Shown one piece after another: positions 153 through 27,168 of a stretch of DNA of 27,984 bases. Both the position numbers and the translations under genes were made by a program. The notes beneath the pieces were generated by a model. That model saw only the letters and a program-made list of their open reading frames with translations. It ran no database searches and was not told the DNA's origin. The first letter of the stretch is position 1. Each line of letters opens with the position of its first letter. Source of the stretch: Phaeodactylum tricornutum CCAP 1055/1 (taxonomy: Eukaryota; Bacillariophyta; Bacillariophyceae; Surirellales; Neidiaceae); contig NC_011700.1 of assembly GCF_000150955.2 (NCBI RefSeq), positions 129,070-157,053 on the forward strand, given 5' to 3'.

Positions 153-3100
153 CTATTTTCTAGAACTTTGTTGTATGTATGCTGAGTAGCACCCCCCAAG
201 CTGGTCAACTTTAGAATGGGCTCCCCAGTTCAGGTACCCTTGCCAGGCTTCTTGGAAATATTGAGCCGCTTTCTTTTCCTTTCCACGCGCTAAACAGTAT
301 AGTGCGGCGCGCTCGTTCGCCAAGGCCGCATGGTTGAAAAATCCAGCCTGTACGGCTCCAGAAATGGCCTCGTCGTAGGATTTTAGAACTTCATTGCTCT
401 GTTTTGATTCAAGTTTGTACTTTTCTGCCCTGAGGAACATGAACATATGCTCGCATTTGCTGTCCCCTTTGACGACCAACCGACGCATCATGCGTAAAAT
501 CTTTTGGCCACTTCGTTGAAACTCAATGCCACACCCAGACTGTGCTAAGAAGAAATCGGAGAGCCCCACAAAAAGCCAGCACACGACAACTTGCAAAGTT
601 CTTGACAATTGTACCTTTACAGCTCGGTGCGCATCTAGTTGAGAAGCTCGTATCGAACTGAGATCTTGCATGTAATAAGCATATATTATGCGGTATAGAC
701 AAATGGTATTGACTTGAATAGCGGCTCCTGCATTCTGACATCTGACCATCCATACGGTATCGTCATATAAATCAGTCGGATTGGCCTCCGCTGTTGATGT
801 CTGAATGAAATACATCAGTGAGGAGAGTCCTACTTCGTGCACAGTCTGAAAGAAAAGGGTGAGAAAATGGTCGGATGCCCATGCAGAGCTAGAATTTGAA
901 ATGCCGTACCTGCTTATATTCGCTTAGCATGGTCAGGAAAGTCGGCAGATCTTTCATTAGGGGTGGTATAGGAAGTCCACTCCAAAAATAGAGGCCACAA
1001 TAAGAAAGAACTGAGGTACACGCGCACACAACCTCGCCACACTCCATTGCGAGCCGATATCCGTACAGAGCTTGACCAGCTGCTTCCGAGACGGTGCCTT
1101 GCAAAGGCGTCAAGATCCAACTTCCAACGGCAAGAGATTGCGCTCTTCCAGATTTGCCCGCCTTTTCACCTAAAGACAGCGCAACGGACAAGTATTGGCT
1201 AGCTTCGTTAAAGTGTCGACTTGTTTGGGATAGAATATTCCCGAAGACCACAAATGCTTTTGGAGATTCCCGAGCAACACCGTACTTTGTGCTCAGTCTG
1301 ACGATTCTCAACGATGCCACAAAGTAGCTGAAATAGTTTCCCATGGCAAAGAAGCTGAGGGATAGTAATCCTAGAAACCGAACCGTAGCACATGCTCTTT
1401 CGTCAGCCATTTTTGGTAGGCCTGACAAATCCTTAAAGGGTTCCGGGTCAAGATGCGTTTTGTCTTGACAATTTCCCAAATTAAAAGCGCTTTGCTAACT
1501 CTGTTGGGCAAAGGTTCATTCAAGCTTCTGAGGACGTCAAATCCTATGTTGAATGCTTCCTCTACATTCCCTTCAACTCGAGAAGACTCCATGACAGCTT
1601 CGAAAGCACCAAGCTTTTCAAAAATGGACGAACTGCGGGACACCACATCGTTGGCGACTCTCTTACAAGCTTCATGCTCACCGAGGCAACTGTACATTCG
1701 ACATAAATGCGTGCTCAACTCCCAGGTCACAGCAAAGTCTGTTTGCCATCCTCCAACTCGTCCTATCTTTTCCAAACCAGCTGACGCATACTGGGCAGCC
1801 GAGAAGAACGCTAACTTCAGCATTGATTTTTCTGCTGCCCTTCCATTGAGACGAGCAAGTTCAATCAACTTGCGCTCCTCATGCAGCTGAGAAGAACCTA
1901 GATTCAGACACTGCTGTCCATAGAATAGTATCGTCCTCGGAGCTAGAGGAAAAGCTCACCTTTCGAAGCGTGTGTTCGCCTATTGGCAAATGTATTCGTT
2001 CTCTCTTACACGAACTATTCCTGAAAAGGTCATAGGCCGCATCGCGGATCGAATGATGAGTGAATTCGAACCAAGGGATACCGCATCGTTTAGTGACCAG
2101 GCCGTTAACGATAGCTTCGTTCAATGTCTCCTTGAGTTCACTTTCAGACAAATGCTCTGAGTCGTCCAAACGTCCCGATCCCCAATTAAAAGGCATGACG
2201 TCCGGTTGCAGAGAAGCGTTTCGTGTTGATCCATATGTCGTGACAAAAGGAGCCACCCAATCCATGCAAAACCTCAGTCCAAAGCAGGCTCCCAAAAACA
2301 AAACATCTTGAGCTGGCTTTGCCAATCGGCTCAGGCGGCCCTTGATCACTGACAAAATTCCAGCTTTTACACCGTTGTCAGCTTCAATTTCTAATTCCTT
2401 AAGCAAGCCTCCCTCGTCTATTGCCTTTACACAAAGAACGGTCAAGAAAGGGTTGCCCATAGTCTTTTTGAAGAGAATATCCAATTCTTCGGTTGCAATG
2501 TAGCTTTTCGCTTTCTTCAAGGTTTGCTTTGTCATCTCGATCCAATCATTCTTGGAAAAGTTGCGAATACGAATTTTGGTAGCATTTACGAGATCTCTAT
2601 TGACCTGAGCTCGTCGAAAAAGTCCTGGTTCATCAGATGTGATAGCTAACAGAAACCCGCTTACAGGCTCGCCTTCGGATAAGAGCGCCTCTATCAGAAG
2701 CAAACTCAATTGGTCTGCCCATTACACGTCGTCAAGCAACAAAACTATTCGGGAGGAGATGGGGTGACAAATTGCTCTGAGGAATCGTTGAAAGAGGAGT
2801 TTTATGCGGGTAAACCCAAATTCGTTTCGCCTGAATGATGCTCGGATGTCATTCCAATCTCCATTTCCCTCAGTGTCGTCATCCGATTCAAGAAAGCCGT
2901 CAACGAGCGCCTTGAAGTTGGGAATTAAATGTGAAAGTTGATTGACGTCTGATTCTAGTTCCTCGCAAAGCGCCTTCCGTATTTTCGATCGTCTTTCGGA
3001 AGCAAGACACTGTACACACAAATCGCTGAAAGCGTCCACAATGGCTGGCCAGGGCTCGCCGACGGGACTGAGTCGAACTTTCCGTATATGAAGAAGCCGC

Positions 3101-3323
3101 CCTCTTGCCTTATCCGTTCCTCGAAGACGTGCTGTAACAAAGCAGTTTTGCCCAAACCTGATGGACCATGTACGAGAATTACGTGAGACTTCTCGCTTCC
3201 TCGCATTGCTGTGGCCAAATCCATGCACTGATCGTTAGCGACGGAGATTGCGGCTTTTTCCTTCACGCGGCCGTACAGATCCCGTTCTGGTTCTTCCACG
3301 GTGAGAATCGTTGGAATCGCCAT
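153..3323 (-). pseudogene. AAA_16/STAND ATPase of signalling multi-kinase type, broken
   Basis: This is a remnant of a large predicted ATPase of the kind found in bacterial and diatom multi-domain signalling kinases: an AAA_16 domain followed by a long helical, TPR-like region. The most likely start is the ATG at 3323-3321 (MAIPTIL), followed by an LYGR motif. Walker A (GPSGLGKT) is near 3150-3170 and is followed by the family's GKFD. Walker B is LLLDDV then WAD near 2710-2750. The C-terminal signature is at about 180-400 (ALANERAA, AWQGYLNWGAHSKVDQL). The reading frame is lost near 3060-3085, near 1900-1925 and near 1435-1470, and a TAA stop occupies 2722-2724 inside Walker B, where the family usually has Gln. 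A GT-AG intron of 64 bases (909-846, phase 0) restores the reading frame near the 3' end and looks genuine. Intact, the protein would be about 1,000 residues. No kinase or histidine-kinase domain is visible. A further 5' exon around 3470-3550 is possible but unproven. Sequencing error is an alternative for single lesions but unlikely for four. Confidence 0.8.
846..909 (-). other. GT-AG intron in ATPase pseudogene
   Basis: On the minus strand CAG|GTACGG at the 5' end and TTTCTTTCAG|ACT at the 3' end bound a 64-base segment. Removing it joins two reading frames in phase 0 (…EYKQ to TVHEV…), and both sides fit the same ATPase family. The pyrimidine-rich acceptor supports a real spliceosomal intron. 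Confidence 0.7.
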
Positions 3324-3584
3324 CGTGAGAATACGGCTAGACAATGGTGACGAGGAGAGTATCGGAAGGCGTGTCGGAATTGGTAAAATGGTGTGCATAA
3401 ATTTTCGTAGACGCCACTGTGGATAAAGTGTCCTCACTCCATGAGGTTTACCCTTACAAAGCGTTTTCCAATGTTCTGGTAAAACTTACGAGGAAAGTCA
3501 CTGTGTAATCTATTCTGAACTTGAGAAGGAAAACGATCACTCTCTGATACAAAGTTTAAAAATGTGAGTCGGTTCGGATGACCA
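3324..3584. other. Gap between ATPase and transposase remnants
   Basis: I find no secure gene in this stretch. On the minus strand 3470-3550 stays open and could be a lost 5' exon of the ATPase gene, joined through a 41-base GT-AG intron that would be unusually short. A TTAA tetranucleotide, the piggyBac target sequence, lies at 3556-3559, but I could not find matching terminal inverted repeats. Confidence 0.3.
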
Positions 3585-5133
3585 GTGAATTTCCCGCCAA
3601 TCTCCGCCCAGCCTCCAACTGATACACTTGATAGCACGCTTCTTGGTGGTGCAACTGTAGCTCCTGCTCTTCCACCAGTTGTCAACTCTCCAGATATCCC
3701 AGTTGTAACAAAGCATGGTGTTGATTGGTATGATGATTCAGAAGCCATATTGGATCCGGTTGCGTCAATGCCAGCCCGAAAATGGTCATTGACAACTCCC
3801 ATTGGAGAAACTCTGCATCCAGGAAGCAACAAACAAAAATACATGTCGCGCTTGGATGTTTTCCTGTTGGTATTCCCCCCAAAGGCACTCACAAGCCTCT
3901 GTAGGAACACAAACATGGCCCTCATGTTGAGAGGAAGGCAGTCAACAGCATTTCCTGAGCTACTGAAGTTCTTTGGTGTTATAATTTTGTCAACAAAGTT
4001 TGAGTTTGAAAGCAGGGCAAGTCTGTGGTCTACTATTGCACCGTCTAAATATATATTGGCACCAGCATTTGGCAAAACTGGAATGTCGCGAGATTGTTTT
4101 GACAACATCTGGTCTTACCTTTGTTTTGGTTATCAACCAACGGAGCATCCCCAGGCCATGTTGTCCAAGCAGTTCTGTTGGTTGTTGATTGACAGTTTTG
4201 TTGAAGAGTTCAACAAATACATGGCAGAAGTTTTTGGACCAACAGAGGTCATATGTGTAGATGAATCTATCTCCCGCTGGTATGACCAGGGTGGACATTG
4301 GATCAACATTGGATTGCCAATGTATGTTGCAATCAACCGGAAACCAGACAATGGATGCAAGATACAATATGTGGCGTGTGGAAAGAGTGGCATCATGATT
4401 TGGCTAAGGCTAGTTAAGGCGGCAGAAGAGGAAGACAGAAATGTGCAGGAGCATGACAATGGGCTCTTACATGGAACTATTGTTCTCAAGGAACTGGTCT
4501 ACCCATGGGCTTGCAATGGTAGGATTGTATTCGCAGACTCCTACTTTGCTTCAGATGAGACGGATTGGGTTGAAATTCATAGGAGTTGTGAAGATGGCAA
4601 CAAAGAAGTTCCCCTTAGCCTACCTTCAAAGATTACCAATCACCTCTCCAAACAGTGCAAGGAGTGGTTTGGTGTCACGGACAGAGGATGGAAAGCCTTC
4701 AATGGTTGCATGTGTTTGGATTGACCGGGAGCAGCGGTACTTCATTTCAAATGCATATGGGCTGACTCCAGGTTCTCTGTACATCAGAAAACAATGGAGG
4801 CAAGAAGACCAAGCACCAAATGCACCCACCACACAAGTAACACCAGAAGTGCCTCAGCCAAAGGTGGCTGAAGTCTACTATGATTCATGCGGAAAGATTG
4901 ATCAGCATAATTGCGACCGACAGGATACACTTGGTGTGGAGCGAAAATTGGTAACCCACTTCTGGGATAAACGGGTTGGCTTGACAATTTTTTCGATGAT
5001 TGCAGTGAATTTGTTTTGTATGTACAACTGCACTGTCCAGAATAGCGTGCAGCAATGCAGGATCCTTTCCACAGGGAGGTATTGGCTGAAAGGAACGCAG
5101 GGATTCAACCTCCACCTCAACCGTATTGTCTAG
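3585..5133 (+). pseudogene. piggyBac-type transposase (DDE_Tnp_1_7), frameshifted
   Basis: The product would be a cut-and-paste transposase of the piggyBac superfamily, in the plant/algal PGBD-like form. Recognisable blocks in order are SRLDVFLLVFPP, a VDES.SRWY..GGHWINIGLP block with the first catalytic Asp codon at 4260, and FADSYFAS with the second at 4536. After a frame change come GLKFIGVVK.ATKKFP, CVWIDREQRYFISNA and a GKIDQHN..RQDTL..ERKL block with the third Asp at 4900. The frame breaks near 4545-4565, directly after the second catalytic block. The 5' end has no in-frame ATG: an in-frame stop at 3579-3581 precedes the coding similarity, so the N-terminus is truncated or an exon is missing. 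The C-terminus runs into a decayed membrane-protein gene at about 5130. The ends of the element were not found. It is unlikely to be active on its own. Confidence 0.88.
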
Positions 5134-5149
5134 CTTATTGCTAGCGGAT

Positions 5150-5826
5150 TGTCCCAACAATGCTCCATTCTTGGCGGCAACTCTCGTCAAACAACAAACG
5201 GCTTTGCCTGACCGCATGCAGGTAGCTCAGCCCAACACGTACGCGCCTAACAAGGTTGTTGTGCTAGCCATAGCTGCGCCTTGGAAACAGCGACCCTATA
5301 CAGGTACTGCGGCGTCTATACGGACAGGCGCACCACGGAAACAATCCCGCATAAACTACAGACTTGTGCTCCTTGCGGAACTCATTGCCTTGGTGGTGGG
5401 AATAGCATTGGGGCTGACAGCAAAATCCAGTAACAACAACACCGACATTTTTGTGTTTGACAACAATCTAGCGGAGGAGGATAGCAGGGAGAATGAAGAG
5501 GGAAATAGCAGGAAGGTGAAAACAATGACTGGGACTTGTACACTTCTGTGCTCAATTTGTGCCCCCATTCCGGCCGCACCCTTTTGGTAAACACCTAACC
5601 ACCAAGCGCTCACGGCAGCAACTAGCTCCCTTTGTATAATTTACCGGACACGGAAGAGAGCAACAATAACAGAAAAAATTCCACGCAAATTGGTATGGCC
5701 ACTGTGCACAAATCAGTATCCTGTTGTCACAATTGTCCGGGGCCCTAGCGTACAGAGTATGTGGAACAAAAAGATCAACAAGTTTGTTCCGAACGCTTTT
5801 GGAGAGATGTCTGGAATACAACCATA
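5150..5826 (+). pseudogene. Decayed copy 1 of ten-Cys membrane-protein family
   Basis: This is a remnant paralogue of the intact genes at 8297 and 11032. It contains the juxtamembrane motif (FLAATLV), the block VVVLAIAAPW, a basic stretch and a hydrophobic membrane segment (LVLLAELIALVVGIALGLT, about 5365-5420). After that the ectodomain is mostly gone. Similarity returns at about 5700-5826, where VHKSVSC and the WR..WNTT block match the VHASVSC…WRELWSTT tail of the copy at 8297. The first ~145 codons, including the EPAQD/PGAF motif, are absent; the piggyBac remnant lies in their place. The ORF ends at 5590, so at most a short membrane-anchored peptide could be made. Confidence 0.72.
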
Positions 5827-5924
5827 AGGCCTTAAGAGATGTGCAAATCTAAGGTTGTGAGTTTTAATAGTAAAAAAGCCTAATGATCCAGCGGAAGTCA
5901 GCGGTGTGTCTTTTGTTCATTTGT

Positions 5925-7150
5925 GACAGAATCATCCGCTTTGAGAGAGCCTCCGCAAATGGGAAGGCTATTGCCGCTAAGGCAACGGCAACATATAAGG
6001 TGTTTGAGGAATCCGCACCGGATATTCTACTCCCAACAGAACTGCAGTGAGCTTTGCAGAGCACATGAGGAGCCTTTCAGCAAAGTGGAATTGGAAGTAC
6101 AGGACAATACCCAGCGGTCTACATCAAGCCGCAATGGTTCACAGCACTCTCACTTGACAGAAAATTCAAGTGCCGACAAAGTGCCGCTGTTGGCGGCGTC
6201 TCTGGTGGAAGATGCGCCCGAGCAAATTGATACGACAGGGGCTACTAGAGGGCCAACAAAGCAGAATTGGACACAGTGATGGTCTGGGCACTCACATGGT
6301 GGCATGGGAACGCGATTGCTTGGACAAGATGGCTACCGTAGAAGTGGCACAAATGAAAGTCAAAGAAGGAAAAATGGTAAATTGGGTTGATACCGCTGGA
6401 TCAATGCTGCAACACGGTAATTTGTCTGTCACAGACCGTGAATGACATAATCGAAAAAATGAAAGTACCAATGACAATGTTGTACTAGAGATGTCAATGA
6501 TTCTATTTCATTGCACTGAATGGAGGATTGTCCAAGCGCGTCTGGTCCCATCACAAACGCCGCTACATTAATTCTCTGAAATTTGAACTTGTCCCGCATC
6601 AGACACAATCCGGGGCTAGTGTCCTTAAGTACCGTCACTGCTATGGCTAGAGTCTTATAGTTTTTGGGGGACTTTTGTCTGGAAGAGAGTGTTTGGGGCC
6701 GCAACACCATTCAAAACCGGCTACGTAGTTGCACAAGTCGGGAACTTACATGAAGCAAGGGTAAGGACAAAGTGACTTCTAAAGGAGGCAATGGAAGTGA
6801 GGTCTAGCTACTACAAACTTTCATATTGGTTGTGAGCCAACTCTCCACCCGTAACCTTTTAGTTGACGCAGAAGTGACCCGTTCTCCCAACATAAAATAG
6901 CTCCAGCTTTGATACGCACTGGACAATGAGGACAATACTAACAACAAAGATGATGAAAAAGAAGGAGATGGAGGCAACAAGGAAGATGACAATGATGGCT
7001 ACCAGTCTGATGCATGTACAAACCGGTATCCTATCAATACCAGATTGGCTGTGCCACAGCAAGCAGACAATGTTCAATAAAGTTGATGAACTCATTTTTA
7101 CCTAACTCTTTTGGCGAGATTTGTAGAGTACAACAATATATGGGCTTTAG
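5925..7150 (+). pseudogene. Decayed copy 2 of ten-Cys membrane-protein family
   Basis: The DNA can be followed along almost the whole of the intact gene at 8297-10093, but in shifting frames with stops. The EPAQD/PGAF region is present as DNA near 6000-6075, out of frame and with a TGA after the LQ codons. VPLLAASLVEDAPE is at about 6180-6225. THMVAWE..CLD is at about 6290-6330, MSMILFHCTE at about 6490-6520 and GDFCLEE near 6668-6690. STRNLLVDAE is near 6850-6875 and the terminal W(R)..V.YNN region near 7110-7145. Roughly 350 bases corresponding to 8835-9190 of the intact gene are deleted cleanly, which removes the membrane segment. It is not expected to make a functional product. Confidence 0.75.
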
Positions 7151-8296
7151 AAAAGATTGAATTGAGGCCAGTAAGCCAGATCAGAACAAGTGGTGCAATC
7201 AGAGCACACACTTTCCTTTGGCAATATGCTGAATTCTTGACAATCTCTCTATCCCGCTCTATCTTTTTCAAAATCAAAAGGAGGGCTTCCACAGCATCCC
7301 TGTTTCTAGCTACGAACTTTAGCAAATAGCCTCACAGTTGCTGATGTCTAACACCATTTGCTCTATATCAATTTTTGTGTGAGACGCATGAGAGGGAGAA
7401 ACATTTTTCGTGACAATCATCCTTGATGTTTGTTCCAGCCAGCAATTGCAATAGTCTGCAGCATCCAGTTTGTACACCACAACCTCCGGACTGTTTGTAT
7501 CATCTTGATGATATCAAAGGTTGAGAAGACCTAATTTACAATCCTATCCTCTACTAGAATACAATCAATTGACCCCCGCAACACGGCACAAGAATACATT
7601 CTGACATTCATTTTCTGTCGACCTAACTGGGCCACAGTCGTAGCAAAGGCTGGCTTCCTGCAATTGGCTCCGTGCCCGGTTTGTGGAAGATAGAGATTGG
7701 TCTGGGTCGTGACAAAATGTACAACACAGCGGATTTCGGTATGAACAATGCTGCCGTTTGAATCTTTGCGGACAATTGCAAAATACCAATTTCGGTGTTT
7801 CCCAAAAACGTGTTTACAGTAAGTCAATAAATCAAATATAAGCTACAAAGTGAGACATAAGTAAGACTGATATATGACTCTTACATTTAAAGGTCCCCTT
7901 CTGGAACTCCTTCACCGTCCTTCCTCTCTACTACTAGCTAGCTAGCTCGCTCGTAGTGTGACCTCTACTCTAAAATGAATGACGTCATCCATTTGCACAG
8001 AACTCGCCGTATCGTTTACAGTTAGCGTGGGTTTTTGTTCCTTTGTGTTTCTTGTCGTGTGTTCGGATCACTCACAGCCACGCACTCGCCAACGTTTTCG
8101 CAATCGTCTCTCTCGTCGTTGTTCTCTGCAAAGGTTATGAACTACGGATGACCCACATCTTCACTAGAAGGCCTTTCTCACTCTCCCATCTATCCAGGGG
8201 TCCTCATTCGTGAATCCCCTTAACCACGTATACCTGCAATTGAGATCTATATCCGCGGAAAGGTACATCACATGTTGACAGTGAACAACACTTGAT
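7151..8296. other. Intergenic region upstream of intact copy 3
   Basis: I recognise no gene. Short open frames on both strands near 7531-7830 match no family known to me and have no convincing start or composition. A small AGCT-rich simple repeat lies at about 7935-7955. The last ~350 bases before 8297 presumably hold the promoter and leader of the downstream gene, but no core element can be named with confidence. Confidence 0.4.
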
Positions 8297-10093
8297 ATGA
8301 AAGAAAAAAATGACCACTCACCAAAAACTTCGAACCATGAGTTGGAGTCTAACGAGGAAACGGGAGTGAATAGTCCTGCGGAGTCGGACGCCTCCTCTCC
8401 TTCGTGTGGTGAACAGCCAAAGCAGCCACGATCGTCACCAGAATCGTCTAAGGTGCTACGAAATGTGCCCGACAAAGGACCACAGGAGGCCTCCACGGAT
8501 GGGAAGCCTATTGCCACTACGGCAAAAAATGAAATGTTTGCAGAACCCGCTCAAGATATTCCATTCCCAACGGAACTGCAGCGAACTGCGCAGAGTACAC
8601 CAGGGGCTTTTCCGCAAATTGGAATGGGAAGTACGAGAAGCAGCGAGACGCCAGTGACCCCGCACTCCGCTCCGACCCGCGATGGTTCCCAGCGTTCCGG
8701 ATCGGCGGAAGAGGATTTTTCCAGTGCCGGCGAACCGCCGCTGTTGGCGGCGACTCTGGTGGAAGATACCCCCGAGCGAAGTGATACGACAGGGACTACC
8801 GGGCCCAACGAAGCAGAATCGGACAAACTGATGGTCGTGGCTGTGGCCGAGCCTGTGGAGCAACGAACCGATACAGAGAAGGCAGCGTTTTCTCGAGGAG
8901 CCTCTTCGAAACGTTGGCGCATGTTGTATGGAGCATTGCTGATAGCCGGGGTAGTCGCGCTGGCCGTGGGGGTGACCCTGGCATTGACGATACAAACGTC
9001 ATCGGGGTCATCAACAACATCGTCTTCGTCAACAGCACTCGGGAGCCCCAACGGCACCAATGCTTCCGTGCCGGATGATACCAATACCCCCCTTCTCAAC
9101 GATACCAATACCAACGACTTCAACGAGGACGTTGAGCAACCCATTCCCGGCAATATTCCATCTAGCGCGCCGGGAGGACCCGTCGTACAGAGCACCCACC
9201 TGGTAGCTTGGGAAAGTAGTTGCATGGACGAAAAGGTAACTGCAGAAATCCAATGTGGAACTAATGAAATTTTGTCGGTCCAAGAAGCAAGAATCGCAGA
9301 GTGTACGATTCAATCGGATCAAGGCTCGAACAGGGCGATTTGCCTGCCTTTAACTATGAATGGTACCATTGAAAGCCTTGAGAGTGCCAATGGCAATGAT
9401 GTACGAGAGATAGCCATGGTTCTGTTTCAATGTACCGGAGTGGAAGATCGTCCCAACGGTCCAGTCCGAGCGCGCTTGGTCCCAACCAGAAATGTTGATA
9501 CAACTGCTCCTGCAAACATGGACTGGCTCTGTGTCAGATTTAACGAGAATCTCCAGTCGGCCATTGCCGATACAGTTCCTGCCACCGCTATGGCTGACTT
9601 TGAAGTCGAGCTTTATATAGTATTAGGTGACTTTTGTCTGGAAAGACGCAGTCAAGGCGACATCAACGCTGTCCGCCACCGGCTTCGTACCAATACGCGT
9701 CGACAACTTGTCGAAAGCAATGTTAGTGACGTGGAAGTCGAGAACGCCACCGGAGATGACACGAGTGAGGGCTGGAGACTACAAAGTTTCGTACCGGGTT
9801 CGTGCCAGCTCCCCGCCCGCAATCTGTTGATGGACGCGGAAGCGACCGGTGCTGCCGAGAACGAGTGGCTCCAGGTGTGCTACGCATTCGACAATGACGA
9901 TACTGGAGACGACGATGACGACGGCAATGATGCGAACGAAGACGAGCTGGTCGTAGTGCACGCGTCGGTCTCCTGTCGACACGAGATTGGTCTTGGTCCC
10001 AGCAGGGCGGCGGTATGGAACGAATTCGAACGACGCATTCGTCCCCCATTGATTTGGCGAGAATTGTGGAGCACAACCATGACTGGAGTGTAG
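8297..10093 (+). CDS. Single-pass membrane protein, ten-Cys ectodomain (copy 3, intact)
   Basis: The 598-residue product is a member of a local gene family I do not recognise. Residues 1-208 are hydrophilic and Ser/Thr/Glu/Pro-rich, with a conserved block at 80-109 (EPAQD.PFPTELQR, QSTPGAFPQ) and a second at 146-160 (EPPLLAATLVEDTPE). A basic stretch (SSKRWR) precedes one hydrophobic segment at about 209-230, and there is no N-terminal signal peptide. This predicts a type II protein with a cytosolic N-terminus and an extracellular or lumenal C-terminus. The linker after the membrane is Ser/Thr/Asn/Asp-rich with several N-glycosylation sequons. The ectodomain has ten cysteines whose order and spacing context match the paralogue at 11032, as in CTG, GDFC, GSC and SCRH. 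An acidic low-complexity run lies near 535-550. Diatom LRR-type surface proteins can carry PGA-containing N-terminal tails, but no LRRs are visible here. The start is the first ATG after an in-frame stop. Function is unknown. Confidence 0.85.
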   Translation: MKEKNDHSPKTSNHELESNEETGVNSPAESDASSPSCGEQPKQPRSSPESSKVLRNVPDKGPQEASTDGKPIATTAKNEMFAEPAQDIPFPTELQRTAQSTPGAFPQIGMGSTRSSETPVTPHSAPTRDGSQRSGSAEEDFSSAGEPPLLAATLVEDTPERSDTTGTTGPNEAESDKLMVVAVAEPVEQRTDTEKAAFSRGASSKRWRMLYGALLIAGVVALAVGVTLALTIQTSSGSSTTSSSSTALGSPNGTNASVPDDTNTPLLNDTNTNDFNEDVEQPIPGNIPSSAPGGPVVQSTHLVAWESSCMDEKVTAEIQCGTNEILSVQEARIAECTIQSDQGSNRAICLPLTMNGTIESLESANGNDVREIAMVLFQCTGVEDRPNGPVRARLVPTRNVDTTAPANMDWLCVRFNENLQSAIADTVPATAMADFEVELYIVLGDFCLERRSQGDINAVRHRLRTNTRRQLVESNVSDVEVENATGDDTSEGWRLQSFVPGSCQLPARNLLMDAEATGAAENEWLQVCYAFDNDDTGDDDDDGNDANEDELVVVHASVSCRHEIGLGPSRAAVWNEFERRIRPPLIWRELWSTTMTGV

Positions 10094-11031
10094 ATTCTTC
10101 ACGGCGTTTGGCACGTGCGTGGTTGCGGGAATTTTGGTAGATATTGGATACGTGAGGAACGGGCGTATACAGACTGTACCGACAACCATTGTCGCCCAAT
10201 CCTCTTTTTGCTTATCCAGGTGCCGTGCCGTCGAGAAAAACACTATATATTGTATGATGGCCAATAATTGGAGACACGAATGATCCCACCATCTAGCCGG
10301 AATGTACTTGGTTGTATTCTATACTCTAGAGTCTACCGGTACATAGGCAGGATATATGGGGGCCCATCACTGCAGTCACCATAGGTTAGTGAATAGTATC
10401 CATGAAGCCAGTGAACAACAGTAAGTGTAACAGGAACAGTAATTGCTCTAGAGGTAGAGGGGGGTAGTCGTTCACGGGGGGTCGATTTTGGGTCGTGTCG
10501 GACACGGATCAGACAGTGGACCGAGTTGGAACGACGAGTCGCAGACTGGCAATCGTGTTTGTTTTGGAATGACACCGTGTACCTACTCCGAGGAGCGTGT
10601 CGCGGTAGATGATGTCATCCTTCACTGTCAATGATACTCCCCGTCACAGTCGGTTTCACCGGTTTACCGTAACAGGAACTGTTGAGGAGAATCATCTCAC
10701 GATAGGACACTCCTTCCCTCGTGGAGACCGCCTCTGTACGAAATTTCTTCTCTCTTGGAGATTTCTTTTGGTTTCTTGGCTCTTTTGTTTGCATTCTCTC
10801 GTGCGGCCTCGACCTTTTTGGTTTGTTGGTGATAGCGTCACTGTTCGTGCAAATCCATTGCGGATTGGATCCAAGCCAACCCACGCAACCAACCATCTCC
10901 GGTTGGACTCGCCCTGGTGGAACCGACGGCCTCTTTACCCAACGAAACCAACCAACCAATTCATTCATCATTCATTCACGGTCGTTCGTTTCCTCACCTT
11001 ACCTATCCCCACCACCATTGTTGCGTGGGAC
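10094..11031. other. Intergenic region and probable 5' leader of copy 4
   Basis: No separate gene is recognised. From about 10730 the sequence is T/C-rich with short repeats of CAACC and ATTC type near 10930-10980, which looks like promoter and untranslated leader. The frame of the downstream gene is open back to an ATG at 10609, so a longer N-terminus cannot be excluded from sequence alone. Confidence 0.45.
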
Positions 11032-12597
11032 ATGACGAACGCGTCCATCTCCACCAACACGGACCTGCCGCAGACGACGGATGAAAGACGCCCGTTACCA
11101 TCAACGAGCGTCAACGAATCCAACTCTGTGGAAACAAGCAAGACGACAGCGGTCGCAAACCAAACCCCGGAAGAGTCCATTCGTCGTTCCCGGGACAAAC
11201 CCGACATGTTCGCCGAACCCGCCCAAGATCTGCCTTTCCCGACGGAGTTGCAACGTGCCCGGCAGAGTACACCGGGAGCCTTTCCACAAGGCGGTACCGC
11301 CACTCGTAGCACGACCTTGTCGACGACGACGACGACGGATGCCAGTCAGTCTACCGCGTCAGTGTCACCGTTGTATATAGCCGCATCCGGTATGCCTTTG
11401 CTGACGGCGACGCTCGTGGCGGAAGACGAGGACGACGCTACCGGACATTCGGAGACTACCAGTGGAACGCACTCAACCCCGCGTCACAATGACGATGATG
11501 ATGAAGAAAAGCAGCGTGGATCGGTAGTCCTTGCCACAGCGGAACCGTGGGAACAACATTCCGTAACCGAAAAAACTCTACGCCGGACTCGCCGTAAGCG
11601 CTGCACGTACGCCCTTGTGGTCTTGCTGGGAATCGTGGGGCTCGTACTGGGCGTAACTTTGGGGATTACCAACCGCACGAACAGTCGCACCGACAGCCAA
11701 ACGACTGCAATAACGGCGAACGACGGTACAACTACCGGAGACGCCAACGGCGATCGTGACAGTTTGGATGGCGACACCGACGATGCACTCTCCGTCTCGC
11801 AAACGTCCCACGTCGTGGCTTGGCCGGTAGCTACTTCCTGTCTGGATGAACCATCTCGGCCACTCGTACGGGTTTCTTGTGGCGCCACGGAAACGGTACG
11901 CATTCGCACCGTCCAAAACGCCAACTGCACCCTTACGAGCGATCGCACCAACGAAGCCACGTGCGTCCCGGATCAGCTTGCCAATTCAGCAAGGTTGGCG
12001 GTTGCCTTTTGGGACTGTACCGGCATCGTGCCGGGGTCCGTCGGCCCCGTCCAAGCGGTGCTATCCCCGTCGCTCCCTACCGACACCGCCAATAACGTTC
12101 CAAACGACGCTTGTTCGACATGGACGGTGGACACCTTCACGTCCAATGCCCCCACCGTACCAACCTACCTTATTCTGGGCGACGTGTGTCCCGTCGTTGC
12201 CTCCAACACGGAAGCTGTCCCAAGCCAAGATAGTGCCGACCACGATGCGACGGAAAGTGCGACCAACGACGACGCGTGGAACGACGACGACCGCCGCATC
12301 CTTACGGTCCCCGATACAACCCAAGCCGATTGGCACATTGTTACACAACGAGACGGTTCCTGTCCGGCACCCGGCACCAACGTGACGGTAGCGTCGAGCC
12401 AACTGCAAGTATGCGCGTGGTTGGAACCGAACGATTGGGAGATGCCGGAACTCCGCGTCCGCCACGACCGTTTGCCGTGCCGACACGCGGTAGATCGAGG
12501 CCCAAGCCTGGAGTCGTTTTGGTATCAGGCGGACCAATTGTTCCAGACCGACGTCATTGTGAACGCGCTAGAACCGTACGGTACGCCACAAGGGTGA
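11032..12597 (+). CDS. Single-pass membrane protein, ten-Cys ectodomain (copy 4, intact)
   Basis: This is a paralogue of the gene at 8297 with the same architecture. From the ATG at 11032 it is 521 residues. The EPAQD/PFPTELQR/QSTPGAFPQ block begins at residue 59, followed by PLLTATLVAED, a basic stretch (RRTRRKR) and one membrane segment at about 193-215. A Thr/Asp-rich linker and an ectodomain with ten cysteines follow, each in the same local context as in the paralogue (SCLDE, SCGAT, NCTL, TCVP, DCTG, ACST, DVCP, GSCP, QVCA, PCRH). Outside these anchors the two proteins are strongly diverged, so the duplication is old. I prefer the 11032 start because it gives an N-terminus like copy 3; the extension from 10609 adds 141 residues including a second hydrophobic stretch that copy 3 lacks. 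Predicted type II topology. Function is unknown; a surface or secretory-pathway role is inference. Confidence 0.82.
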   Translation: MTNASISTNTDLPQTTDERRPLPSTSVNESNSVETSKTTAVANQTPEESIRRSRDKPDMFAEPAQDLPFPTELQRARQSTPGAFPQGGTATRSTTLSTTTTTDASQSTASVSPLYIAASGMPLLTATLVAEDEDDATGHSETTSGTHSTPRHNDDDDEEKQRGSVVLATAEPWEQHSVTEKTLRRTRRKRCTYALVVLLGIVGLVLGVTLGITNRTNSRTDSQTTAITANDGTTTGDANGDRDSLDGDTDDALSVSQTSHVVAWPVATSCLDEPSRPLVRVSCGATETVRIRTVQNANCTLTSDRTNEATCVPDQLANSARLAVAFWDCTGIVPGSVGPVQAVLSPSLPTDTANNVPNDACSTWTVDTFTSNAPTVPTYLILGDVCPVVASNTEAVPSQDSADHDATESATNDDAWNDDDRRILTVPDTTQADWHIVTQRDGSCPAPGTNVTVASSQLQVCAWLEPNDWEMPELRVRHDRLPCRHAVDRGPSLESFWYQADQLFQTDVIVNALEPYGTPQG

Positions 12598-17412: not shown

Positions 17413-18179
17413 AGAGAAAATTCGCTGAAGGGATGGGAAAAAGTGAAAAACTTCTAGAAGGGAACAGAACGTGTTCAATATAAGTAGCTTTACTTGGAAC
17501 CGGCATTTTGTTAAGTATTAAACTCAAGGTCATGATTTCGTCACGGATGCAGAAGGTTCATGCCAAGATACTTATTACTTGGCGTCCGAGAAGAGATGCT
17601 GCGGTGCCACACCACAAAGGAAACAAGTTGTTTCGGCAGCAAACGTCTGCAGGGGGCCGGATTGTTTCCCCAAACGTTGCGTGCAAGTGGATTGAACCGC
17701 AAACAGTTGTGGAAATCGACAGATGACGCTTAGGGACTTCTATGTTCCGGCTCATTGCAGTCATTTGGGCTGGAAGTGCATATGCCCTGTCTGGGCTGTA
17801 CGTTTGTTGGCAGATTTTTCCTTTTTAAAGAGAGAAATAAGAACAAGAGAACCCTGAAGGGAAGCGAACAATAGATTAAACCTACCATACGGAGCTGATT
17901 GGATTGCTCAGCAGCCTTTTTGCGGATCCTACGGTTTGGAAACTGAAGCCATCGCCCTTTCCATAGTTGTTGAAAGAGGTTAAAGAGACAGTAAGTACCT
18001 GCCGTTGGGTAATTGACCGGCAACGGTCGGCATCTTAGGCAACGACGCGGTGTTTAGCTTAAATGGATTGAATACTTAGTATAGTACTTGCGTCAAATGA
18101 AGCTACTTAGAATGATTACGTTCTGTCCCCTTTAAAGAAGTTTTCCACTTTTCCGCATCCCCTCAAGCGAATTTTCTCT
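17413..18179. repeat. 767-base unit with ~107-base imperfect inverted ends
   Basis: The left arm (17413-17519) and the reverse complement of the right arm (18179-18071) align along their length. Both begin AGAGAAAATTCGCT. They then share a GGGATG…AAAAGTG…AAAACTTCT run, a CAGAACGT block, TAAGTAGCTT, and AAGTATT at the inner edge, with scattered substitutions and short gaps. The interior of about 550 bases is not repeated. It contains a weak possible minus-strand spliced ORF (ATG at 18033, candidate donor at 17998) that I do not recognise. The structure resembles a non-autonomous DNA transposon or an inverted duplication. I did not find a convincing target-site duplication. Confidence 0.65.
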
Positions 18180-19760
18180 TAAAAATTAACACTGTAAGTA
18201 AAAAGGTTTCGGTCTTATTCACTGTCCGACACTCCATTCAGCACAATCTATTCGAAGGACATTTTATCTAGAGACACATTGGGTACCGCAAAAACATCCG
18301 GGAGCAACACTTCCTCTTTACAGTTAATTGTTACCGGGAGTTCGAAATGTAGATTTTGAAGAGCCCATCTTGTCTTCGTAGCTTTGTCAAGATCATTTTG
18401 CGACTTTCTTCATCGCTTGTAGATCGTATGATGTTTGACTGACTGTGAAATAGTAGCGTTGATTTTTGCTTTCAGGTATTTTACCCTTCCCTTTGCCCCA
18501 TGCAAATTCAGTTTAGTTTTCAGAATGGAATGTTGTATGGAATATAAAGCGTGTTCAATCCAGTGTGATTCTCGCATTCTAGCCATTAGAAATGGAGTCA
18601 CCAGTGGCATCATTACTGGACAATTGGCGGGGCCTAGCTAGACACGCTGGAAGACGAAACTACTGCAAGCGCTGTCTTTCAGATAAACTAATCTAACATT
18701 AAATGAAAAATTTGGCTCTTTAAAAAAATGAATTCTACAAGCATCCAAGGCTGCAAGGTAACAAGCGCACTAACCACAAACCCCCTACGGTTTATGTGCA
18801 CCTCCATGAAAGCGCTCCGGAGTACATTTGACAGATGAGTACAAGTTTCGTAGTATTCAGGAAATATGATGATACCATCATTGAGCACTCACCGTGTATG
18901 GTGCTCATTCCACCAATAGAGCTAATTATTTGTAAGGAAGAGAACTCGAATTCTGTGGTTATATTGTGCACGGAATAAGGTCATCGAATTGACAGGAAGT
19001 TCTCGAGAGAAAAAGACTGCCACCACACCCGAAGTTTCTTGTGAGGCGGAGCCGTCGAGTGCACCAATTGACCGCTCTGGCTCCAAAGGATATTGGAATA
19101 ATTTTTACCGCACGTATATTCTGCATCGGACCGACCTTGCAGAATAGATTCATATAAAGGGCTGTCCAACAAAGCTAGAGACCTAATTACACTTACATTG
19201 GCGAGCTTTCTAACAGGCGAACTCTCTCTAAAACAAATAACCTCTGACATCATTGTATATGACGTAGTTGTGCGAGCGTTTTAGTATACAACTTGCAATC
19301 GGTGTCTTAAGTAAACGGGTTTTCAACCCAGAAAAGCGAAGAAAAGCGGAAAGATGAAGTTTGCTTCATCGCAATGTTCCGCCGGTTAAAGCCATTGTTG
19401 CGAATGAAGACGAAGGTACAGAGCTCTCGTGCAATCTCTACTTTGCAATGCGCCACCAGTAGACCGTCCATCAATATACTTTGGGTGCACAATGAGGACC
19501 GACCAGCTGAAATGGACCGCCTAGCCTTGAAGGCGAAAGGGTGGATTGCAAAACATGCAGAAAGAGTAAGCAAGCAAACAATCCTTGTCTCCATGAGACT
19601 TTGTATGTCTCTACTTTCCATTGCTTTAAATTTGTGAGCAATTGGGCCTTTTTACTCATAGGTTAACTTGTGTTCCACAAGTTTATCGATGGAGAAAACG
19701 ACGATACTGAAGTGGCGTCTATCACTCACTACTGCTAAAGCATCGCATCGATTCGCCGAT
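18180..19760. other. Long intergenic stretch, no recognised gene
   Basis: Nothing here matches a family I know. Short frames on both strands look like chance. The best of them is a plus-strand ORF from 19374 that could splice through a GTAAGC…CATAG intron (about 19566-19660) and would then run antisense into the HSF gene. It has no recognisable domain, and I give it little weight. Confidence 0.35.
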
Positions 19761-21023
19761 TTACTTGCCTTTCAATGCTGGTGCCCCAGCCCTTCGTATT
19801 CGGGGGAGGAATTCCGGGAATCCGCGCTTAAAGTTAGGATGCATGTATATATCCACGATACCGCCTTCGCATATGCGGTGAAAGCTGTACATTTGCAGTT
19901 GTCGCATAAACGAACTCATCTTGGTGTGTCGAAAGTACTTTGGGGCAATATCTCGCACAAATGCTCTTTGCTTATGTATCCGGAACGATAATCCACCAGG
20001 CATCCAGGACACAACGTCTTCGTTGCCGAGGTCAGCTACTTCTTCTAACAAACGGTACAGCTTTTGTGGAAACGGTTCACGACCCTCCTGAGCTTTACTT
20101 CGCTCTATCGCGCACAAATCTGATGAGCTTGAACCTGTTCCTGAAAAGGATCGACTGAACTCTTCGCTTGGTACCGTTGGGACAGCTAAGGAACCGGACT
20201 TGGGCTTTACCGCAACGGAACTGACCGTTGTTGCTGTTCTGGACAGGGATTGGATACCCGCTTTGCGTTTGTCTGCTGCTGCCACCCTTTCGTCAAAACC
20301 TACGGACGCTCTTGAAATATGAGATATACCAGCTCTTCCGCTGGCATCCATATCACTTTCGAGTTTATCCCTCATCCCGACTAGGAAGTTTGCGGCAACT
20401 AGTTCTCTAGCCTCGTTTCCAAGGTCTGGTTTCGGATTAGCTGGTAATTTCTTACAAAGCTGCTGCTGATGATTTATCTCGACAAGGGATTGTAAAAGAA
20501 GCCGAGATTGAAGTTGCTGAAAGGCTTGTAGATTCTTTGATGCATCTTGCACCGGAGTAGCACCATCAAGGACCGGCCTTCCTTGCAGTATGGCCAAGAA
20601 TTTTTCAACGGAAACATTTGGATTCGGTGCCTCGTTTTCCTCCGATACGAAAGGTTGTCGGGCAACTCCTTCTGAAGGCGTCTTGCTGCTGTTGCTAGTC
20701 GTGCTCTGACCGTGGGGAGGAGGATGCAGTCTGGACGCTGTATTTGCCAACGTAGACAGCAAAATTCGAAGCGCATTTTCGAGGCTTCCCGCCGCCGCTG
20801 CAAGATGGACCCTCTTGAGCTCCTCCATGTATGACTGAATTGGGTTTTCAATTGGCACGTCTTGGACTTGAGAGTGACGTACGAGAAGAGCGGGAGCTAG
20901 AAGGTTTTGGGGCTGGTTAATCGCACTTTCTCTCTGGGAAGCCGAAGCAAGTGCAGCGAGGCGTTCACTAAGTAACCTTCTGAGCTCTTGTTCGTTGCTG
21001 TGAGCGGAATCTTCGTCGCTCAT
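19761..21023 (-). CDS. Heat-shock-factor-type transcription regulator, C-terminal DBD
   Basis: The 420-residue protein starts at the ATG 21023-21021 (MSDEDSAHSN); the frame is open slightly further upstream but without ATG. Residues 1-315 are low-complexity and Ser/Ala/Gln/Leu-rich with several amphipathic Leu-repeat segments (about 12-25, 85-105 and 165-200) that could mediate oligomerisation. The HSF DNA-binding domain occupies residues 316-420: FPQKLYRLLEE, VSWMPGG.SFRIHK, the recognition-helix region PKYFRHTKMSSFMRQLQMYSF, and YMHPNFKRGFPEFLPRIRR. It ends a few residues before the stop. Diatoms have greatly expanded HSF families, and many members differ from the animal/yeast order in which the DBD is N-terminal. 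Nuclear role; targets unknown. The basic tail could act as a nuclear localisation signal. No intron is visible. Confidence 0.93.
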   Translation of the reverse strand: MSDEDSAHSNEQELRRLLSERLAALASASQRESAINQPQNLLAPALLVRHSQVQDVPIENPIQSYMEELKRVHLAAAAGSLENALRILLSTLANTASRLHPPPHGQSTTSNSSKTPSEGVARQPFVSEENEAPNPNVSVEKFLAILQGRPVLDGATPVQDASKNLQAFQQLQSRLLLQSLVEINHQQQLCKKLPANPKPDLGNEARELVAANFLVGMRDKLESDMDASGRAGISHISRASVGFDERVAAADKRKAGIQSLSRTATTVSSVAVKPKSGSLAVPTVPSEEFSRSFSGTGSSSSDLCAIERSKAQEGREPFPQKLYRLLEEVADLGNEDVVSWMPGGLSFRIHKQRAFVRDIAPKYFRHTKMSSFMRQLQMYSFHRICEGGIVDIYMHPNFKRGFPEFLPRIRRAGAPALKGK

Positions 21024-24187: not shown

Positions 24188-25249
24188 CTACTTTTTGGAC
24201 ACGCTGGCTCGACGAATCTTATACAGCAGCTCCGGATGCCCCTTTTGAAAGTCGATGTGGACATAACAGTCCACACTGGCACCCTCAACCGTGCGCGAGA
24301 AATGGTACAACTGTAACTGCCGGGTAAAGGAACTGAGCTTGGAATGTCGAAAGTAATTAGGTGCGACTTCTTTGATGAACTGGTGTGGTTGATGTATACA
24401 AAACGATTTCCCCGATGGCATGAATGATATAATGTGGTCGAACCCTAAGCGTTCGGCTTCGTTCAAAAGGCGAAAGAGCTTTTGTGGAAAGGGTTCGGGC
24501 CCGTCCGCGTCTCGATGAGATTGTGGACGAGGTGAGGATTTTGAAGATGGATTCCGTCCGGCAGAAGCTTGTGCCGGCAAGGTCGCAAAGGGTGCCATCG
24601 GGAGTGTCGAGGACCTGGCGACCCCGCTGGCCCACGCCGAGCTAGAAACTGGCGAAGTAGGCAGGGCGGGGAGTGGAATACGCTGTGAATTTTCGGACAG
24701 AATTTGTTGTGCTTGAGCTTGGCTATTCAAGGCAACGTACTGCAACGCGGCGGCCGTGCTTTGTAGCGACGTTTGCAGATACTGCTGTTGTTGTTGGAGC
24801 GTTTGTTGGCGGTGGAGTGCGAGCAGCTGCAACAGATCCTGCGATGCGTGACTCAGCGAGGCGTACTCCGGATAATAGCCCGATTGTCTAGACGGATTGG
24901 ACAAGGCTTGGAGCTGTGCGAGAGCGTTGGATATGGGATCCTGCGGGAAAGCGTTCGCGTGCGCACTGGTACCCGCCGTGGACTGGTCGCCGGAGAGAGA
25001 GTTCGGGGGCGGTGGTAGGAGTGGTTGGGCCCGGTGCGCTGGTTGTCTCGCTTGCTGATCTGGTCCTGCGTCGCGACTGGACCCCACGAGCAGACGCAAC
25101 AGCGCTTCCTCAACGGATCGGGTCGTGTGGAGGGGCGCCAGCGCCTCGGACGGCGATGCAGAGCTTGCCATACCGGACGACGACTGTAGTGCTATCTGCA
25201 GCAACCGACGGAGGATGTCTTCCACATTGGGTTGTGGAGGATCCCCCAT
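24188..25249 (-). CDS. Heat-shock-factor-type transcription regulator, C-terminal DBD
   Basis: The 353-residue protein starts at ATG 25249-25247. The N-terminal ~250 residues are Gln/Ser/Pro/Ala-rich. They have short Leu-repeat helices (DILRRLLQIAL, EEALLRLLV) and a poly-Gln-containing helix at about 150-170 that may serve in oligomerisation or activation. The HSF DNA-binding domain is at residues 252-353: FPQKLFRLLNE, ISFMPSGKSFCIHQ, PNYFRHSKLSSFTRQLQLYHF and YVHIDFQKGHPELLYKIRR. The protein stops seven residues after it. The domain order matches the HSF gene at 19761, and both begin the DBD with EPFPQKL, so the two are probably related by duplication, although the N-terminal halves are strongly diverged. 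The usual Trp of the first DBD helix region is Phe here. Expected to bind heat-shock-element-like DNA; real targets are unknown. Confidence 0.93.
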   Translation of the reverse strand: MGDPPQPNVEDILRRLLQIALQSSSGMASSASPSEALAPLHTTRSVEEALLRLLVGSSRDAGPDQQARQPAHRAQPLLPPPPNSLSGDQSTAGTSAHANAFPQDPISNALAQLQALSNPSRQSGYYPEYASLSHASQDLLQLLALHRQQTLQQQQQYLQTSLQSTAAALQYVALNSQAQAQQILSENSQRIPLPALPTSPVSSSAWASGVARSSTLPMAPFATLPAQASAGRNPSSKSSPRPQSHRDADGPEPFPQKLFRLLNEAERLGFDHIISFMPSGKSFCIHQPHQFIKEVAPNYFRHSKLSSFTRQLQLYHFSRTVEGASVDCYVHIDFQKGHPELLYKIRRASVSKK

Positions 25250-25755: not shown

Positions 25756-27168
25756 ATGTCGACCTCTGCTCACTTCAAACTGAGCGACTTTCCTCACAAA
25801 GTCCTGGATCCGATTGCCACCCTCACCGTCCCACCGACTTACGCGACCATCAAACATGCCCAACGTCAGCTCATGACCAACGCAGCCGCCATCCCCACGC
25901 TCAACGGTGGCGGCGCCCACGGCCACATGGCCTTAACCCTCACCGCTCTCGCGTACGCCGACATCAGCGACGTCCCGTTCGTCATTCCCGTCGCTCCCCC
26001 TGCCAATCCGCCCCCCGGCGCCACGCAACCCCAAATCACCGAGAATAACCGCGTTCACCAACGCGACGCTGACATTTACAACCTTTATGTCGCTGTTAAC
26101 AACGCTCTCCGCCAACAGCTTCTCGATGCGATTCCCCGCATCTACGTACGCGCCCTCGCGCATCCCATGTTCGAGTTCAGCAACGTCACGTGCCTTGACT
26201 TGCTTTCGCACCTCTGGACCAAATACGGTACAATCAAGCCCGCTGAGCTCCAGAAAAATTTCCAGTCAATGTTCACCCCGTGGAATACAACAGAACCGAT
26301 TGAATCCGTTTTTCTCCAGCTCGACGAGGCCATCGCCTTCTCCGTCGACGGTAACGACCCCATCTCCGAAGCTGCCGCCGTACGAGCCGGCTATGAAGTC
26401 ATCGCGCACTCTGGCCTGCTCCTCCTCGACTGCAAAGAATGGCGCAAATTACCCCTTGCTTCTCACACCCTTGCCAACTTTCAGCAGCACTTTTCCCTTG
26501 CCGACGACGACCGGCGCCTTACGGCCACCACTGGTTCCCTCGGCTATGCCAACGTTCTCGCTGCAACCCCCTCTCTGACTCCAGCCACGGTTTCCGACAC
26601 CCTCAGCCTTCCCTTCTCCGCGCTCTCTGTGTCACAGACTTCCGTCTCCTCTCCGGATATGACCTATTGCTGGACCCATGGGACCAGCAAGAACCGACGC
26701 CATACGAGCGCCACGTGCAAGAACAAGGCCCCTGGCCATCGCGACGACGCGACCGCCACCAACACTCTCGGCGGATCCACCAAGATTTGGACCGCCCCCA
26801 AACCCCCCAAATAGGAAAGAGGGACGGCTACGCCAACAATTTATAATGATTATTTAAATCATATTACAAGTCTTAACTTGTCTGTAGTCCCCTCCCCGAA
26901 TAGTACACATACCTCAGCCATTGCTGACACCGGCTGCACCGGCCACTACATCACGGACAACTGCCCCCACACCAATAAGCACCCAGCCAACCCCAGCCTA
27001 GCCGTCCGTGTCCCGAACGGCGCCGTCCTTCGCTCGAGCCACATTGCCACCCTGGCCCTTCCTGGTTTCTCCCCCGCAGCCTGCCAAGCCCACATTTTTC
27101 CTGGGCTCGCTTCCCATCCGCTCCTCTCCATCGGACAACTGTGCGATGACGGCTGCACGGCAACCTTG
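25475..27168 (+). mobile_element. Ty1/copia-like retroelement, 3'-truncated
   Basis: The left part of a diatom copia-like LTR retrotransposon: a possible LTR/leader, a Gag reading frame and the beginning of Pol (aspartic protease). Integrase, reverse transcriptase, RNase H and a 3' LTR are missing. The similarity to protease fades at about 27168, and the sequence then runs through about 530 bases of unrelated DNA to the telomere. The left boundary is tentative. The element cannot transpose by itself as it stands. Confidence 0.75.
25756..26814 (+). CDS. Gag-like protein of copia-type retroelement
   Basis: The 352-residue structural protein starts at the first in-frame ATG, 25756; the frame is open further 5' but without ATG. 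The N-terminal and central parts look like a copia Gag (LSDFPHKVLDPI near the start, then a region with LWTKYG and FQSMFTPWN…EPIESVF.QLDEAI). Near the C-terminus is a zinc-knuckle-like motif with C305, H308, H316 and C321 (C-x2-H-x7-H-x4-C, in YCWTHG…RHTSATC), the arrangement I associate with diatom copia elements. It would package element RNA in virus-like particles. The reading frame is intact and ends at a single TAG, after which the same frame stays open into the protease. Confidence 0.8.
   Translation: MSTSAHFKLSDFPHKVLDPIATLTVPPTYATIKHAQRQLMTNAAAIPTLNGGGAHGHMALTLTALAYADISDVPFVIPVAPPANPPPGATQPQITENNRVHQRDADIYNLYVAVNNALRQQLLDAIPRIYVRALAHPMFEFSNVTCLDLLSHLWTKYGTIKPAELQKNFQSMFTPWNTTEPIESVFLQLDEAIAFSVDGNDPISEAAAVRAGYEVIAHSGLLLLDCKEWRKLPLASHTLANFQQHFSLADDDRRLTATTGSLGYANVLAATPSLTPATVSDTLSLPFSALSVSQTSVSSPDMTYCWTHGTSKNRRHTSATCKNKAPGHRDDATATNTLGGSTKIWTAPKPPK

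Follow-up and report, generated by a model that had tools for sequence, protein, structure and literature searches.

Capture of a piece of a subtelomeric membrane-protein gene by a Mutator-like transposon in the diatom Phaeodactylum tricornutum

The DNA analyzed here (the window, i.e. the whole stretch of 27,984 nucleotides) comes from Phaeodactylum tricornutum CCAP 1055/1 (contig NC_011700.1, C32 in our numbering, positions 129070-157053; assembly of 27.45 Mb in 88 contigs) and carries a tandem array of four copies, A to D, of a membrane-protein gene. The most solid new result of this work is that a 660-bp piece of the last gene, copy D, has been captured by a Mutator-like transposon and spread to other contigs. 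The evidence also supports the assignment of the array to an unrecognized family of proteins that cross the membrane once and have a constrained cysteine framework. An earlier note on this DNA, made from the letters without database searches, had described the array; the present analysis adds a further intact paralogue on contig C1 and the transposon-borne pieces of D on contigs C4, C11, C12 and C15.

The captured piece of copy D

The donor gene and the captured piece are located in the window as follows:

11032-12597, + strand: intact copy D, 521 aa (504/520 residues identical to the Joint Genome Institute (JGI) protein P0003)
11448-12107, + strand: 660-bp piece of copy D (residues 139-359), which recurs with inverted repeats of the Mutator-like element (MULE) type on contigs C4, C11, C12 and C15

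The start of copy D was assigned to the ATG at 11032 rather than to that at 10609, because P0003 begins there and because the match between copies C and D begins only at window position 11152. The captured piece spans the membrane segment and the first five cysteines of the ectodomain, and stops two residues before the sixth. The four dispersed pieces are 92.1-93.9% identical to D at the DNA level and 87-93% (contigs C4, C11 and C15) or 79% (contig C12) at the protein level. The left junction, with the same transposon arm, is common to all four places, and the right junction to three of them (the piece on contig C15 reaches 11889 only and ends before it). On contig C12 the first bases of D are followed by ~200 bp of other sequence, after which D resumes and is continuous from 11499. 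Because the junctions are shared in this way, they point to a single capture followed by spread, which would be the probable order of events.

The pieces on contigs C11 and C12 lie between facing terminal inverted repeats (TIRs) of about 156-180 bp (contig C11: 156 nt, 97% complementary; contig C12: arms of 132 and 49 nt, 98 and 94%), and the ends of the elements read GAGAAAATACGC or near it. Outside both ends of the contig C12 element there are identical 10-bp direct repeats, i.e. a perfect target duplication. Of 13 two-TIR elements examined, seven exhibit a perfect direct repeat of at least 9 bp and two a repeat of 8/9. In a control carried out with a narrower search, a 9/9 repeat was found for 6 of the 13 true end pairs and for none of 156 mismatched pairs. 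The TIRs and the direct repeats together thus constitute a Mutator signature; a search of the genome with the TIRs returned at least 43 matches.

The transposon arms reveal what the piece of D has displaced. The left arm, from the TIR to the D piece, encodes the N-terminal ~33 residues of a MULE transposase (62% identity, E-value 1.3e-12), and the right arm yielded no credible transposase match (E-value 0.07 or worse). A relative on contig C3 matches the element up to position 352 (85% identity), at or within a few bases of the capture junction, and then continues past the junction into a transposase relic with stops, 45-47% identical to the MULE transposases of this genome. By eye, a short run, TT.GGA, is common to D and the C3-type arm at the junction. 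Because the D piece occupies the place where the relative on contig C3 has its transposase, and because we find two long TIRs, a target duplication (10 bp, on contig C12), a piece of a host gene with an intact source and no working transposase, as expected of a Pack-MULE, the element is on its sequence features a Pack-MULE.

The piece on contig C4 is open and has no ATG near its start, that on contig C11 has one stop and a 1-bp deletion, and that on contig C12 a 1-bp deletion. On contig C11 the reading frame that begins at the transposase start stays open for 146 codons, entering the D piece, and is then broken. The pieces appear to be decaying and probably make no working protein.

Several relatives of this transposon are found elsewhere in the genome, and one of them in the window, 5 kb downstream of copy D:

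17413-18182, no strand assigned: relic element with inverted repeats, from the same TIR group (self-complementarity 83% over 86 bp; identity to the TIRs of the D-piece elements 73-80%; no target duplication by eye)

The profile of the MULE transposase domain PF10551 matches 18 places in the genome, 17 of them over the cut-off. One of these transposases, on contig C8 (37 bits), has a TIR of this group at a distance of ~1.4 kb; a second TIR was not found in the 6.5 kb examined. As separate observations, two 1576-bp elements of a second TIR subgroup (L075 on contig C16 and L076 on contig C12) are 99.2% identical and each is flanked by a perfect 9-bp target duplication, which indicates recent movement, and three near-identical 635-aa MULE transposase open reading frames (ORFs) (L082-L084, on contigs C9, C29 and C18), whose upstream sequences differ beyond ~520 bp into the loci, indicate a recently active family. 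Contig C12 itself starts inside an element of this TIR group (L090, positions 1-200).

The donor family

The remaining members of the array and the parts of the two intact proteins are as follows:

5027-5826, + strand: decayed copy A, with internal stops (tblastn of C, D and P0001-P0003)
5943-7147, + strand: decayed copy B, with several stops (tblastn)
8297-10093, + strand: intact copy C, 598 aa, with one membrane segment and ten ectodomain cysteines (P0001 91% identical)
8549-8623, + strand: tail motif of copy C, residues 85-109, A.D.P.PT.L.R....TPGAF.Q.G (invariant columns of alignment A1)
8936-8992, + strand: membrane segment of copy C, residues 214-232 (hydropathy)
9203-9976, + strand: cysteine ectodomain of copy C, residues 303-560
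11611-11667, + strand: membrane segment of copy D, residues 194-212 (hydropathy)
11839-12480, + strand: cysteine ectodomain of copy D, residues 270-483

The four copies do lie head to tail on the + strand, as described, with two of them open and two decayed. Its subtelomeric position is also fair: the window ends in 47.8 copies of the telomere repeat AGGGTT, starting 15 kb downstream of the array. However, the architecture that had been attributed to all four copies is restricted to C and D, because A is without most of the ectodomain and B without the basic stretch and the membrane segment. In copy A, 5027-5509 contains traces of the N-terminal motif, of the basic stretch, of the membrane segment and of the stalk, and 5521-5826 traces of the C-terminal end (tblastn with C: residues 92-239 at 5027-5443 and residues 493-595 at 5530-5826). 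Residues ~240-488 of C have no clear tblastn match in it, and P0002 alone covers part of this region with a 23% identical stretch over 5332-5826. Copy B has the N-terminal motif at 5943-6261 and the ectodomain at 6290-7147, corresponding to residues 63-172 and 300-598 of C, with residues ~173-299 missing; its DNA at 5949-6284 is 72% identical to copy C.

C and D share the order hydrophilic tail with the motif, basic stretch, one strong membrane segment, stalk and exactly ten ectodomain cysteines, and acidic linkers are present in the sequence. The tail motif is also present in the contig C1 paralogue and recognizable in B. The ectodomains of C and D are only 28% identical, and the earlier statement that their ten cysteines fall in matching contexts holds pairwise (10/10 coincide), but the sixth pair does not form one column in the four-row alignment A1. 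When the cysteines were masked before alignment of C with D, seven of ten still coincided (0.30 expected; seven or more in 0/100,000 random placements) and the score was 21.6 standard deviations (s.d.) above shuffles, which supports a constrained cysteine framework. Five disulfides in the ectodomain are possible.

The paralogue on contig C1 (472 aa, L008:1420-2835) exhibits the same N-terminal motif and order of parts and matches C with an E-value of 1.8e-6. Its N-terminal similarity is 14.7 s.d. (C) and 9.0 s.d. (D) above shuffles, and its ectodomain is clearly similar to that of D (8.7 s.d.). It has 14 ectodomain cysteines, of which eight are in columns common to all rows of A1; pairwise, eight coincide with D and only three with C. 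Hence the designation of a ten-cysteine family suits C and D, but not the family as a whole.

In keeping with the earlier remark that no named domain is visible, C, D and the contig C1 paralogue gave no Pfam match over the curated cut-off and no NCBIfam match, a result compatible with a remote relation, and the family matched no PDB sequence. AlphaFold models have low mean predicted local distance difference test (pLDDT) scores (38.0 for the ectodomain of C, 34.0 for the contig C1 paralogue) and no confident fold. The higher-scoring parts, beta-rich in both, lie within the first ~100 residues of the C model (blocks at 45-69, one at 34) and the first ~75 of the contig C1 paralogue. An immunoglobulin-like beta sandwich was considered as a candidate for the first lobe; fold searches found no significant match.

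Among the matches listed in searches of ~5.8 billion sequences, the close proteins elsewhere are the JGI proteins P0001 (C-like), P0002, P0003 (D-like) and P0004 (C1-like). Because of their identity to the reference copies we take them to come from strains of the same species, so that among the matches listed the family has so far been found, as it seems, only in proteins of this species. The counterparts of C, D and the contig C1 paralogue are full length. C and P0001 are identical at 546/597 positions overall (69/99 in residues 1-100 and 294/298 in residues 301-598), and the contig C1 paralogue and P0004 at 466/472. Of the 16 differences between D and P0003, 12 are in residues 401-450, between the seventh and eighth cysteines. 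P0001 and P0002 are identical at 148/149 positions over residues 51-200, 94/99 over 301-400 and 100/192 over 401-597; on this pattern, P0002 is a mosaic of near-identical front parts with a divergent second lobe. The best reference match to P0002 is C (72%). Over its second half P0002 resembles decayed copy B more closely (47%) than C does (40%). P0002 may be the living counterpart of copy B. The family had been called fast-diverging, which holds between paralogues but not between the strain proteins seen (C against P0001: ectodomain 294/298, residues 1-100 69/99). On this small sample, the ectodomain seems to be kept between counterparts, with change by copy exchange or loss rather than by rapid point change.

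Function and alternative explanations

Our preferred explanation, to which we give a probability of roughly 0.55 as a whole, is that of a surface-exposed type II single-pass family with a disulfide-braced ectodomain, with a piece of one gene taken by Mutator-like capture. According to the positive-inside rule, the basic flank on the N-terminal side of the membrane segment would keep the tail in the cytosol, which suggests the type II topology. The ectodomain would then be exposed at the cell surface or in the secretory pathway and act as a disulfide-braced binding module of two lobes (cysteines 1-5, beta-rich, and cysteines 6-10), and the tail motif could dock a trafficking or signaling partner. 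A binding role is putative, as is the recognition, adhesion or mating role proposed earlier. Tandem duplication would create new copies and deletions would inactivate them. A Mutator-like transposon would have exchanged most of its transposase for 660 bp of copy D, or of a close relative, and then carried this piece to other contigs.

Several findings weigh against this explanation. The ectodomain of the contig C1 paralogue is only marginally similar to that of C (2.8 s.d.), and its similarity is lost when the cysteines are masked (0.6 and -0.6 s.d.). The structure models gave no confident fold, and the two lobes and the disulfides are hypothetical. In D and the contig C1 paralogue, some N-glycosylation sequons fall in the tail, which would be cytosolic in this model. 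The near-identity of the ectodomains of C and P0001 speaks against a rapidly diversifying ectodomain and weakens a recognition role under diversifying selection. On the side of the transposon, only one TIR was found in the stretches examined on contigs C4 and C15, and 4 of the 13 two-TIR elements have no repeat of 8/9 or better, among them the contig C11 element, which lacks a clean target duplication (best 7/8).

The ectodomain, near-invariant between C and P0001, together with the acidic linkers and the sequons of C, which occur only after the membrane segment, would also suit a structural or cell-wall-associated membrane protein (a vesicle or frustule coat), with an acidic stalk and a disulfide-braced ectodomain serving the wall rather than a ligand. 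Diatom wall proteins are, to our knowledge, shared among diatoms. This family, unlike widely shared wall proteins, has only the four close proteins among the matches listed, and no Pfam match over the cut-off, NCBIfam match or PDB-sequence match was found; we therefore consider a wall protein unlikely.

Alternatively, C and D could be merely the last open copies of a dying orphan family with no function under selection, since two of the four array copies are dead and the pieces elsewhere are decaying. However, C and D retain all ten cysteines with ectodomains only 28% identical, and the strain counterparts are full length. In addition, comparison of D with each of the four pieces gives a ratio of nonsynonymous to synonymous substitution rates (dN/dS) of 0.28-0.34 (i.e. 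~0.3 in comparisons including the D lineage), and comparison of the pieces with one another gives 0.49-1.15; these values come from one gene set against decaying pieces by a simple method, and they are based on small counts and on pairs that are not independent. This pattern fits constraint on the D lineage that may have been lost in the cargo, and a dying family appears still less probable than a wall protein.

A more far-reaching idea, drawn on contig C11 where the transposase start is in frame into the captured membrane segment, is that surface receptors are reshuffled: tandem copies would swap lobes (as in P0002) and Mutator elements would carry the membrane segment and first lobe to new sites and possible fusion with other genes, giving strain-specific receptor sets. 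We regard it as a long shot. The least probable alternative is that the dispersed pieces are segmental duplications into which inverted-repeat elements inserted later; it could account for the single TIR at two of the four places and for the contig C11 element without a clean target duplication, but hardly for the same start junction and the same transposon arm at 4/4 places, nor for a piece enclosed by two facing TIRs on contigs C11 and C12, the latter with the identical 10-bp repeats outside.

Neighboring features, known systems and significance

The window contains several further features:

153-3398, - strand: several ORFs resembling one broken large gene, the first of which (2958-3398) matches AAA_16 over the cut-off
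3768-5130, + strand: piggyBac-type transposase (PF13843), divided by a frameshift into two overlapping ORFs, which ends approximately where copy A starts
19764-21023 and 24191-25249, both - strand: two proteins, each with a C-terminal HSF-type DNA-binding domain (PF00447)
25756-26811, + strand: 352-aa ORF, copia gag-like by eye, without a match in the Pfam search

Among known proteins, the diatom transmembrane leucine-rich repeat (LRR) proteins without a kinase (MRP2 and MRM2 of Pseudo-nitzschia, PMC6261938, as described in the part of that source available to us) likewise combine a membrane segment with a large one-sided domain, and an LRR protein on contig C23 (L026) also has a hydrophilic N-terminus ahead of its membrane segment. 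The present family differs from them in that the Pfam profile search found no LRR match, and the only similarity is a weak match around the membrane segment (E-value 0.02).

For the transposon, the closest parallels are the Pack-MULEs of plants and the Pack-TIR elements of animals (PMC6446971, PMC8277862, PMC8903248, in the sections available), which likewise have long inverted repeats, 9-bp target duplications, several copies and a piece of an intact gene in place of most of the transposase. In contrast to the plant Pack-MULEs, here the host is a diatom, the donor belongs to a subtelomeric family without named relatives, and ~33 transposase codons persist at the left end. In P. tricornutum, 152 MuDR copies (100 kb) and a repeat set that includes host-gene fragments have been reported (PMC5859163); in the available parts of that paper none of the MuDR/MULE elements is described as bearing a piece of a host gene. 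In the text available of a eukaryote-wide survey of MULEs (PMC6446971), target duplications are either absent or unstated for the diatom MULEs listed, and Pack-MULEs are mentioned in plants. A limited literature search, judged mostly by title and abstract, found no report of a diatom Pack-MULE.

Gene capture by Mutator elements is known mainly from plants, and the animal parallels are other inverted-repeat elements. The diatom case would extend it to stramenopiles and would offer a small, tractable test system in a compact genome, where one can see the donor gene, the capture junctions, a target duplication and also a relative without the captured piece. The protein family, with its constrained cysteines, its dead copies in the reference and a mosaic relative elsewhere, is a good target for studies of diatom-specific surface-protein function.

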